From Natrarchaeobius chitinivorans (lineage in GTDB: Archaea; Halobacteriota; Halobacteria; Halobacteriales; Natrialbaceae), in the NCBI RefSeq assembly GCF_003841505.1, contig NZ_REGA01000009.1:1-64000 (forward strand): a DNA stretch of 64,000 bases, read 5' to 3'. The position numbers were made by a program, and so were the translations under genes. Below, in pieces: positions 46,138 to 50,145 of the stretch. Numbering within the stretch: position 1 is the first letter of the stretch; every line of letters starts with the position of its first letter. A model generated the notes under the pieces. It worked only from the letters and a program-made list of their open reading frames with translations. It did no database searches and was not told where the DNA came from.

Positions 46138-47163
46138 ATGAGCGACTCGGACTCGAGCGACGGATCGGACGATCAGGGACGACTCGAGGGACCTCGGCTG
46201 TGGCTGTTACTCCAGGTAAATCGCTGGTTGTTCACGGCTGCCATCCTGTTTGCCGTCTTCGCGATCCTGGTGGCCGCGAGTTTTCTCGAACTGACGCCGC
46301 TCCGGGAGATCGTCGAGAACCAGGACGGCATCGAGTTCCTCTTTTCGGCGTTCATCGGGGCGATCATCACCGGCACCTCGATCGTCGTCACGATCAACCA
46401 GCTCGTGTTGTCCCAGGAACTCGGCGCGGTCGGTCAGCAACGAGACCGGATGCAGGACGCGATGGAGTTTCGCCGGGACGTCGAAAGCACGATCGACGAG
46501 GACGCGAGTCCGCCCGAACCCGCCGCGTTCCTCTTCGAACTCGTCGACGGCGTCCAGGAGCGAGCGAGCGAACTCGAGGCGGAGATGGAGGGCGGGCGAG
46601 ACGAGGAGTTACGGGAGAAGATCGCCGACTACGTCGACGATGCGACCGAAAACGCACAGACCGTCAAGGACGACCTTCAGGACGCCCAGTTCGGGACGTT
46701 TGACGTGATCTGGAACGCGCTCAACTTCAACTACTCGCGGAAGATCTACGACGCTCGCAAGATTCGGGCGGACCACGGCGACTCCCTCTCTGAGGAAGCA
46801 AGCGAGAAGATCGACCACATGATCGACACGCTGCAACTGTTCGGCCCGGCCCGCGAGCACTTCAAGACGCTTTACTTCCAGTGGGAGCTGATCAACCTCT
46901 CGCGGGCGCTGTTGTACATCTCGGTGCCCGCGCTAACGGTGATGGCGATCATGATTATGTACGTCGACGGGAGCGCGTTGCCGGGATCGACCCTCGGCGT
47001 CGACAACCTCGTCTGGCTGACCAGCGCGGGATTCGTCGTCGGCATCTCGCCGTTCGTCGTCTTCATCACCTACATTCTGCGAATCGCGACGGTCGCAAAG
47101 CGAACGTTGGCGATGGGTCCGTTCATCCTCCGGGAGTCCGAACGCGACGAAGATCTCGGCTGA
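46138..47163 (+). CDS. Haloarchaeal membrane protein, paralogue 2 of 3
   Basis: 341 residues, same four-helix plan: WLFTAAILFAVFAILVAASF and AFIGAIITGTSIVVTINQLV at the front, a region with SPPEPAAFLFELVDGVQER, then AREHFKTLYFQWELINLSRA followed by LLYISVPALTVMAIMIMYVD and PFVVFITYILRIATVAKRTL. It is closer to paralogue 3 than to paralogue 1. Separate promoter possible in the 135-bp gap. Confidence 0.75.
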   Translation: MSDSDSSDGSDDQGRLEGPRLWLLLQVNRWLFTAAILFAVFAILVAASFLELTPLREIVENQDGIEFLFSAFIGAIITGTSIVVTINQLVLSQELGAVGQQRDRMQDAMEFRRDVESTIDEDASPPEPAAFLFELVDGVQERASELEAEMEGGRDEELREKIADYVDDATENAQTVKDDLQDAQFGTFDVIWNALNFNYSRKIYDARKIRADHGDSLSEEASEKIDHMIDTLQLFGPAREHFKTLYFQWELINLSRALLYISVPALTVMAIMIMYVDGSALPGSTLGVDNLVWLTSAGFVVGISPFVVFITYILRIATVAKRTLAMGPFILRESERDEDLG

Positions 47164-47231: not shown

Positions 47232-48269
47232 ATGAGCGGCGACGGCTCCCAGCCAAGCGATACGATGGCCGAGCGCAGCGACGACCCGACCTGGAAGCAC
47301 GAGCTCCTGTTGAACGCGAACCGCTGGCTCGTCACCGCCGGGCTGATGGTGTTCGTCGCCGTCGGCCTCCTGTTCGTGAGCGAGTTTAGCCCCGTCTCGT
47401 TACGGGCGTTGATGGGCGAGAAAGAGCCGGTCCACACCCTCTTTCAGGCGCTCGTGACCGCGTTGATCACCGGCGTCACGCTCGTCGTGACGATCAACTC
47501 GCTGGTGCTCTCGCAGGAACTTGGTGCCGTCGAGGACCAGCGCGAGCGCCTCGAGGGCGCACTCGATTTTCGCGAGCGCGTCGAGGCGTCGATCGACGCG
47601 CCGATCAGTCCGCCGGAGCCCGCGTCGTTCGTCCAGGCGATCATCGCCGCCTCGGAGGAGCGAGCCAACGACTTTCGAGAGGCCGTTGCCGACAGTCACG
47701 ACGAGGAGTTCGAAGAGCGCGTCGACGACTTCGTCGACAACCTCACGACCCACGCCGACTCGATCCGCGACGATCTCGGAGACGCCCAGTTCGGCACCTA
47801 CGACGTCGTCAAGGCCGCGCTGGACTACAACTACTCCTGGAAGATCTTCCGCGCCCGCCGCATCCAGAACGCGCACGCGGACTCGTTCACCGACGAGACC
47901 CGCGAGGCGTACGACGAACTGCTCGAGTCGCTGAAGCTGTTCGGACTCGCCCGCGAGCACTTCAAGACGCTGTACTTCCAGTGGGAACTCATCAATCTCT
48001 CGCGGGCGATGATGTACGTCGCCGTGCCCGCGCTGGTGGTCACGATCTCGATGCTGCTGTTTTTCGATGCAGACGCCGTCTCGGGGACGATCCTCGGCAT
48101 CGATTCGGTCGTCTGGGTCGTCGTGCTGACGTCGACGGTCGCCGTCACCCCGTTTCTCCTGTTGATCGCCTTCGTCCTGCGGATCGCGACGATGGCCAAG
48201 CGGACGCTCGCGATCGGCCCGTTCATCCTCCGCGACTCGAGTCGCGGCGAGGAGATCGACTGGGAGTGA
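47232..48269 (+). CDS. Haloarchaeal membrane protein, paralogue 3 of 3
   Basis: 345 residues. It shares with paralogue 2 the stretches SPPEPASFVQAIIAASEER, DAQFGTYDVVKAALDYNYSW, AREHFKTLYFQWELINLSRA and ILRIATMAKRTLAIGPFILR. Tandem duplication and divergence are evident. An NQL or NSLVLSQELGAV motif after helix 2 is conserved in all three copies. Function unknown. Confidence 0.75.
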   Translation: MSGDGSQPSDTMAERSDDPTWKHELLLNANRWLVTAGLMVFVAVGLLFVSEFSPVSLRALMGEKEPVHTLFQALVTALITGVTLVVTINSLVLSQELGAVEDQRERLEGALDFRERVEASIDAPISPPEPASFVQAIIAASEERANDFREAVADSHDEEFEERVDDFVDNLTTHADSIRDDLGDAQFGTYDVVKAALDYNYSWKIFRARRIQNAHADSFTDETREAYDELLESLKLFGLAREHFKTLYFQWELINLSRAMMYVAVPALVVTISMLLFFDADAVSGTILGIDSVVWVVVLTSTVAVTPFLLLIAFVLRIATMAKRTLAIGPFILRDSSRGEEIDWE

Positions 48270-49211: not shown

Positions 49212-49526
49212 ACCACGTCGCTCGCGCGCGAACGGCCGTCGACGATTACGCGACTACAGTGGCGCGCCGACGAGGACGACCTTCGCGCGTTCCTCGCCCC
49301 GGTTTACGATCTTCCGGGTTACTTCCGGGTCCAGCCTGAGGAGTTGGTCTTCCGCGAGCGCGACGGTCTCGGCTGCGTCGGTCAGTTCGACCTCGATCTC
49401 CCCGGCGACGACGTAGTAGATCTCCTCCTGACCGGTTTCGGTCTCGTCGTGTTCTTTTCCCTCGCCATCGGGCTCGAGTTCGAGGATCGTGAACCCGACG
49501 TGGTCCGCCTCGAGTTCGTCTTTCAA

Positions 49527-49832
49527 ATAGGTATCAAGGCGGATTCCCCGCCCTTCCGAAAACCTGCGGTTTTCGGCTTTCGCAAATCGAAGATTTGCGT
49601 CAACACCGTGGGCGGGGAGGAAGCCGACACTCGCTGTCCCATACCAGTCTTTTAGTCGATGGCATCCCAACAATCTGGTAGTGGTCGGCGGCCCACAGTT
49701 GTCGTCGGCTACGGGCCGCAGTCAACCGGCCCCGAAGTCAGGGATGCCGACCTGTGAACGCCCGAAACCCTTCGGGTACGACGCGGCGAGTCCACTGACA
49801 AGCCACGGGCCACCGCGCCCGTGGCAGTTGAC
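49527..49832 (-). mobile_element. Nonautonomous IS200/IS605-like element inserted in the cupin gene
   Basis: A 306-bp insertion exactly between codons 24 and 25 of the cupin gene, without target duplication. One end has a 9-bp hairpin GCCACGGGC-N6-GCCCGTGGC (49802-49825); the other has a three-stem structure (49546-49617). Subterminal hairpins without terminal inverted repeats and without target duplication fit the IS200/IS605 group, and the complex end resembles the right end that overlaps tnpB and its guide RNA in IS1341-type elements. No tnpA or tnpB frame remains, so it would move only in trans. Family assignment is inference. Confidence 0.6.
49546..49617 (-). ncRNA. Cloverleaf-like structured end of the element (omega-RNA-like candidate)
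   Basis: Outer stem CCCCGCCC (49546-49553) with GGGCGGGG (49610-49617). Arm 1: CCGAAAACC-TGC-GGTTTTCGG (49556-49576). Arm 2: CGCAAATC-GAA-GATTTGCG (49581-49599). All three stems are perfect. On the minus strand it would be the 3' part of an element transcript running into the cupin sequence. Related TnpB right-end RNAs serve as guides; here no nuclease gene is present, so the role is open. Confidence 0.45.
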
Positions 49833-50145
49833 AAACCACATTCCACCGATTTCCTCCGGCACGACCGATTCAGCGTCGGTCTTCGTTGCGGTTTCGTACC
49901 CCATACCGTGTTCCTCGACGACGAGACGGTAAACTGCTGGGGAACCGGACGTCGATACGAACGGAGGGTGAGGGGGTGCGGCCCACACCGGACTATGGAC
50001 TTAGAGATATAATTGATTTATTATATAATAGTTCTCGAACGTACTATTAATGCACAAATTCGCGGGTTAAGACGTAATATAGATATGATTTTTAGATGGT
50101 GTGTTGGGTGAGATTAATGGAGTGACATCTGGTATTCGGTACTAC

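Follow-up and report, generated by a model that had tools for sequence, protein, structure and literature searches.

Palindrome-associated transposable elements (PATEs) have been known from Haloquadratum walsbyi since 2011 (PMC3119063). As far as the accessible text of that source goes, the 306-bp insert described here resembles the H. walsbyi PATEs in having near-terminal palindromes but neither terminal inverted repeats nor a target duplication, and also in its transposase-less size, its IS605-type boundaries, and its haloarchaeal host (PMC3119063). PATEs with IS605-like ends are already known, and the insert adds one more such element. The difference lies in its content: the H. walsbyi PATEs are described, in the same portion of the source, as DNA elements, whereas the right half of the insert corresponds to the omega RNA of a TnpB nuclease with a predicted self-directed guide. 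A second comparable case is a PATE-like element of 271 nt from Halanaerobium, which consists of LE, the last 58 nt of a tnpB open reading frame, and RE (PMC7290912). It shares with the insert the same architecture and the same kind of internal deletion but is present as a single copy in a bacterial host, and the available part of its description does not include an omega RNA (PMC7290912); the family of the insert, in contrast, was traced across several haloarchaeal families.

The window (the whole stretch of 64,000 nucleotides that was analyzed) is part of contig C9, one of the 48 contigs that make up a 4.57-Mb haloarchaeal genome. Within it, a cupin gene on the minus strand is separated into two parts (Table 1). 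The sequence-only reading had held this gene to be cleanly split by a 306-bp nonautonomous element, and its coordinates were exact to the base: the minus strand without positions 49527-49832 gives a single 114-aa frame (...EEIGGMWF|LKDELEADH...), as that reading had also stated, and the rejoined product is a Cupin_2 protein (Pfam, 35.9 bits versus a cut-off of 27.2). Orthologues agree with this reconstruction. The search returned 30 loci (L041 to L070), and in all 29 that remain when the window's own locus (L045) is set aside, reading of the junctions found GMWFLK continuous at the insertion codon, with the insert as coding sequence in none. Two of these orthologues (L041 and L042) have TTCAA at the insertion point. 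No target duplication is present, and removal of the element restores TTCAA|AAACC.

Table 1. Features of the interrupted cupin locus, in window coordinates
Feature	Position	Strand	Remarks
Cupin gene, 3' part	49254..49526	(-)	LKDELEADH... to stop; separated by insert
Target pentanucleotide TTCAA, left of element	49522..49526	(+)	Candidate TAM; also precedes 12 other complete copies, L079, L085, and the C8 tnpB element
Nonautonomous IS200/IS605-type element (PATE), 306 bp	49527..49832	(+)	
Left-end hairpin, 9-bp outer stem, 50-bp module in loop	49545..49618	(+)	Branched fold, shuffle z -5.0; module absent in L075, L191, and others
Double-hairpin module, 50 bp	49554..49603	(+)	50 extra bases versus relatives
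Module parts: TT, first arms, CTTT, second arms, TCAA	49556-49564/49568-49576 (first arms); 49581-49588/49592-49599 (second arms)	(+)	
AT-rich peak, candidate TATA box	49647..49654	(+)	~30 nt upstream of first RNA helix
Omega RNA scaffold, six helices	49681..49832	(+)	Homologous to tnpB 3' ends; model spans 49656-49832
Right-end hairpin, 9-bp stem	49802-49825	(+)	Compensatory changes among copies; shuffle z -3.3
Cupin gene, 5' part (24 codons)	49833..49904	(-)	M...GMWF
Predicted guide segment, cupin host sequence right after right end	49833..49852	(+)	From omega RNA layout

Cupin relatives occur in 103 of 125 family genomes, own genome counted (E <= 1e-15). In the own genome the broken gene is the sole match at this threshold, and two of the three other members of the genus have no cupin relative at E <= 1e-15; the cupin gene is therefore dispensable. 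Two neighboring frames of 341 and 345 aa (46138-47163 and 47232-48269) resemble, by eye, tandem paralogues of a membrane protein.

An order-wide search of 392 genomes gave matches in 54 (E <= 1e-8), some of which are left-end-only matches from other elements, and the 18 best right-half loci (L072 to L089) were aligned to the element. Twelve are complete copies of 256 to 311 bp, with TTCAA directly to the left and GTTGAC as the last bases, and they agree with the insert on both ends and on the lack of duplication. Their flanks are all different and represent unrelated insertion sites. Two further loci (L079 and L085) have TTCAA, but their final one or two bases deviate from GTTGAC, and the remaining four (L084, L086, L087, and L089), in which the TTCAA left end was not found, are broken or diverged copies with no recognizable left end. 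Over the part 3' of the 50-bp module, the identity of L073 and L075 rounds to 100%, and yet the two occupy different sites.

No protein gene was found in these elements. In tblastn searches with four queries, neither tnpA nor tnpB was matched in 18 of the 19 copy loci (L071 to L089), the window's own locus (L071) included; the sole exception, L074, has a remote fragment. No open reading frame is conserved among the copies, and a Pfam scan of one frame of the insert, its stops masked, gave no match. Palindromes lie near both ends, and terminal inverted repeats are absent by eye (left end ATAGGTATCA versus right-end reverse complement GTCAACTGCC), which, with the missing target duplication and transposase gene, is the set of features that defines PATEs. 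The family likewise has what marks IS200/IS605 elements, i.e., a fixed left target and right end at many sites, no duplication, and ends in common with a tnpB element. Shared ends at unrelated sites, combined with the lack of transposase and tnpB, mark out a nonautonomous element of the IS200/IS605 type, and the insert, judged by its sequence, is such an element of the PATE kind. The common TTCAA and GTTGAC ends support the sequence-only reading here also, and the comparison of copies demonstrates mobility. By eye, no convincing IS608-style pairing was found between left guide sequences and TTCAA.

The sequence-only reading had pointed to a full element with the same ends as a further comparison, and one was found in the same genome. 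It is a lone-tnpB (IS1341-type) element of 1384 bp on contig C8 (150855-152238), with the left end TTCAA|ATAGGTATCAAGG and the right end GGCAGTTGAC matching those of the insert and a homologous omega RNA (110.8 bits). It differs from the insert in its intact tnpB frame, its lack of the 50-bp module, and its RNA region, which is only ~70% identical. The tnpB frame has 418 codons and encodes TNB and OrfB domains, and what we take to be the usual D, E, D, and zinc-finger motifs can be seen by eye. L092 and L093 are further related elements. A relative of the C8 tnpB in the same genus (L019, G003:C16) is apparently truncated, with 235 residues aligned and one TAA.

The right half of the insert was modeled as an RNA. 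Nineteen tnpB-less copies (alignment A2) gave a six-helix consensus, from which a covariance model (R1) was built. In A2, 98.0% of cells pair under this consensus, and two-sided changes are seen in 11 pairs and 34 cells; of 500 shuffles, which ignore kinship, 1 attained the first value and 0 the second, and with slid structures no more than 3 pairs and 9 cells show two-sided change. Such changes occur in helices 1, 3, 4, and 5 as well as in the right-end hairpin (helix 6). The window's RNA has a folding energy of -80.9 kcal/mol (z -4.2). In the own genome, R1 matches six places: the insert (204.7 bits) and five others (110.8 bits on C8, 90.9, 67.9, 58.3, and only 19.9 bits on C6), all five of which are at tnpB 3' ends.

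Across the 125 family genomes, 11 R1 matches score at least 176.8 bits and the next scores 126.8. Above this gap, eight of the nine loci read are without tnpB, and L140 adjoins a fragment of another tnpB class. Below it, tnpB is present in 19 of 21 loci (L142 to L162), most of which encode relatives of the C8 protein; the tnpB queries used around the gap were 14 of the 19 tnpB frames of the own genome. L142 (118 bits) and L146 (116 bits) have no tnpB match despite their below-gap scores, so the gap is an imperfect divider. Matches at tnpB 3' ends, together with the tnpB-less loci above the gap, identify the insert as a carrier of an omega RNA without its nuclease, closest on present sequence comparison to the RNAs of C8-type tnpB elements; the homology of the RNAs is demonstrated by that comparison. 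Omega RNA-only elements are reportedly found beside TnpB elements in Geobacillus, where Meers et al. are said to have described them in 2023 and where they are thought to rely on TnpB in trans. By that description they likewise lack tnpB but belong to another host domain and another sequence family. Our literature search for an orphan omega RNA acting as a MITE returned nothing, which says little. A known Rfam RNA was ruled out, as nothing matched at the gathering level; the haloarchaeal sot2652 (sense overlapping transcript) family, RF02657, reached 18.5 bits against a cut-off of 61 (E 0.3). Viral contigs gave no match to a strict RNA pattern.

Two features of the layout bear on how this RNA might be made and directed. 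The AT-rich peak is 77% AT across copies, versus a mean of 38%, and is the highest AT content to the right of the module; its placement where an archaeal TATA box would sit is suggestive only. The flank after GTTGAC is cupin sequence (AAACCACATTCC...), and the predicted guide segment would be read from it, at a length that we take to be 20 nt. Independent support for the production of PATE RNAs comes from published data, in the portions accessible to us: a haloviral PATE is strongly transcribed over ~300 bp (PMC10544981), and omega RNAs of Halobacterium are expressed, including in circular forms (PMC12558985).

These observations lead us to a reading that we hold with good, though not full, confidence: the insert is a PATE derived by tnpB loss, presumably moved by TnpA in trans, whose self-guided omega RNA is probably loaded by an outside TnpB and which would be retained by cutting. 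A lone-tnpB (IS1341-type) element that lost its tnpB coding region would have given rise to the 306-bp guide-only element, which would have entered the cupin gene right after TTCAA by single-strand Y1 TnpA transposition, with TnpA provided in trans. The omega RNA at the right end would have stayed intact, the flanking cupin sequence serving as the guide and TTCAA as the TAM. The RNA would probably have a promoter of its own and be taken up by a TnpB encoded elsewhere. Exact loss of the element would then join TTCAA to the guide sequence and so create an ideal target of the element's own RNA; the complex would cut the emptied locus, and repair from a filled copy would restore the element. For TnpB elements, the part of the source available describes the site left by their own excision as such a target of the guide (PMC11870625).

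The enzymes that might act in trans were sought in the own genome. Its 19 tnpB (PF07282) matches compare with a single Y1 tnpA (PF01797) gene, on contig C6, so that nuclease genes are in strong excess over transposase genes. The C6 element that holds this sole Y1 gene has different outer ends (TCTAA on the left, in its relatives, and GTTTAC on the right). The left ends of the insert and the C6 IS605 element are 91% identical, but this identity is that of the shared 50-bp module and a common hairpin, and with its outer ends differing, the C6 element was rejected as the element to which the insert belongs. The empty left-end hairpins of a C6-type element (L191) and of the insert family (L075) are identical over 22 nt (CCCCGCCCCACCGTGGGCGGGG). 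In IS608, TnpA recognizes a hairpin, and the element's own guide bases set the cut site. Given this recognition and the hairpin identity, the C6 TnpA could plausibly move the insert. The best candidate for the source of the nuclease is the C8 tnpB. Genes of its type (at least 72% identity) occur in 7 of 19 element-bearing genomes versus 32 of 373 others (Fisher p 0.0012, from genome lists compiled by hand and with kinship ignored). The other 12 element-bearing genomes have none at this identity, and the partner is therefore uncertain or variable; in these genomes a different TnpB may stand in, or the RNA may be inactive.

The strongest competitor, which we consider unlikely, is that the insert is a decayed IS605 remnant, moved by TnpA in trans, in which the omega RNA is a functionless leftover of tnpB. 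Internal-deletion derivatives do occur: an independent short element (L185, G095:C2:423900-425000) consists of LE, the last part of another tnpB, an omega RNA, and RE, a layout that illustrates the deletion step by which such elements arise and represents a second origin of a guide-only element, and PATE-like remnants made of LE, a tnpB tail, and RE are described from Halanaerobium in the accessible text (PMC7290912). Truncated copies without a left end also exist (L084, L086, and L089). Against this, the 256- to 311-bp layout and the RNA core are common to many copies from several families, with compensatory changes among them, and a relic of single origin that continues to be copied would need some selection for the RNA or, failing that, for its hairpins. 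Changes confined to helix 6 could mirror recognition by TnpA, but the two-sided changes extend to four other helices.

Far less probable is that the RNA acts away from its own site, for example by directing a TldR-like, nuclease-dead TnpB homologue in regulation or by working in antisense against the cupin gene. The RNA of the insert is indeed antisense to that gene, and the strong ~300-bp transcription of the haloviral PATE, as given in the available text (PMC10544981), is compatible with such a role; the guide segment, however, is the local flank and is different at each insertion site, a pattern that fits self-targeting better than regulation of one fixed target. An artefact of the assembly can be set aside, as can a coding insertion specific to the host, since no support for either was found, related copies with identical ends occupy other sites in other species, and a coding insertion is ruled out by the absence of the insert from every orthologue read and of any frame conserved among the copies, the one masked frame scanned having no Pfam match.

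With the tnpB-loss PATE as the preferred reading, the left end calls for separate treatment. The sequence-only reading had noted a hairpin near one end and a complex fold at the other, and both folds are real (Table 1), but the left one resolves into a plain hairpin plus an inserted 50-bp double hairpin. This second unit and the omega RNA with its predicted self-directed guide go beyond that reading. The left fold was ruled out as an intrinsic feature of the element, as copies and TnpA elements occur with and without the module. Among 15 copies (alignment A1), four have it (the window, L072, L074, and L076) and 11 do not. The four form two groups (window/L072 and L074/L076, each 94% alike, with ~82% between groups), and module-free copies are found in the neighborhood of each.

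Searches of the 392 genomes for the module found 27 places with exact arms and 33 with 3 mismatches (34 distinct); the reversed pattern was found in none. All 34 (L107 to L133 and L179 to L185) are inside IS605-type terminal hairpins, with TCAA|CACC always next: 31 in left-end hairpins, one in a right-end hairpin (L112), and two in fused left-right remnants (L125 and L126). At loci of C6-kind TnpA, the left hairpin holds the module in 8 of 30 cases and, at the match threshold used, no module in 22. The module loops occur both ways round (TGC/GCA, GTA/TAC, and TTC/GAA). In G192:C1, L112 and L129 (810027 and 811880, ~1.85 kb apart) seem to belong to one C6-type element with the module in both hairpins, and the fused remnants L125 (G110) and L126 (G115) have identical flanks in both genomes.

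The nearest described counterpart of the module is SMR-A of Haloquadratum, which inserts into palindromes near the ends of PATEs and IS605-type elements and leaves no target duplication (PMC3119063). The module likewise goes into near-terminal palindromes without duplication. Compared by description, in the part of the source available, SMR-A differs in its size of ~110 bp and its terminal inverted repeats (PMC3119063), whereas the module has 50 bp and two separate hairpins. REPINs, from what is accessible of their description, are another comparable double-hairpin system (PMC3116915). The module is at most a variant of SMR-like repeats. Tentatively, and with more doubt than belief, the whole could be read as nested parasitism, in which a widespread haloarchaeal element that has only a self-targeting RNA hijacks the TnpA and TnpB of others and itself carries, in its TnpA-recognition hairpin, a loop-inserting module, perhaps Y1-moved. 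In such nesting, the single-stranded loops of terminal hairpins of the IS605 type would be the sole places where the module inserts.

With no protein gene of its own, the insert has apparently retained a putative guide RNA of a CRISPR-like nuclease, and it probably borrows the enzymes of other elements to move and to stay put. At ~256 bp when the module is left out, it is a clean and minimal example from nature in which to ask whether a mobile element can be maintained by an RNA-guided nuclease that acts in trans. The hairpin-restricted 50-bp module, in turn, provides a sharp test of whether terminal hairpins exist as single-stranded DNA in cells and are targets of transposition.
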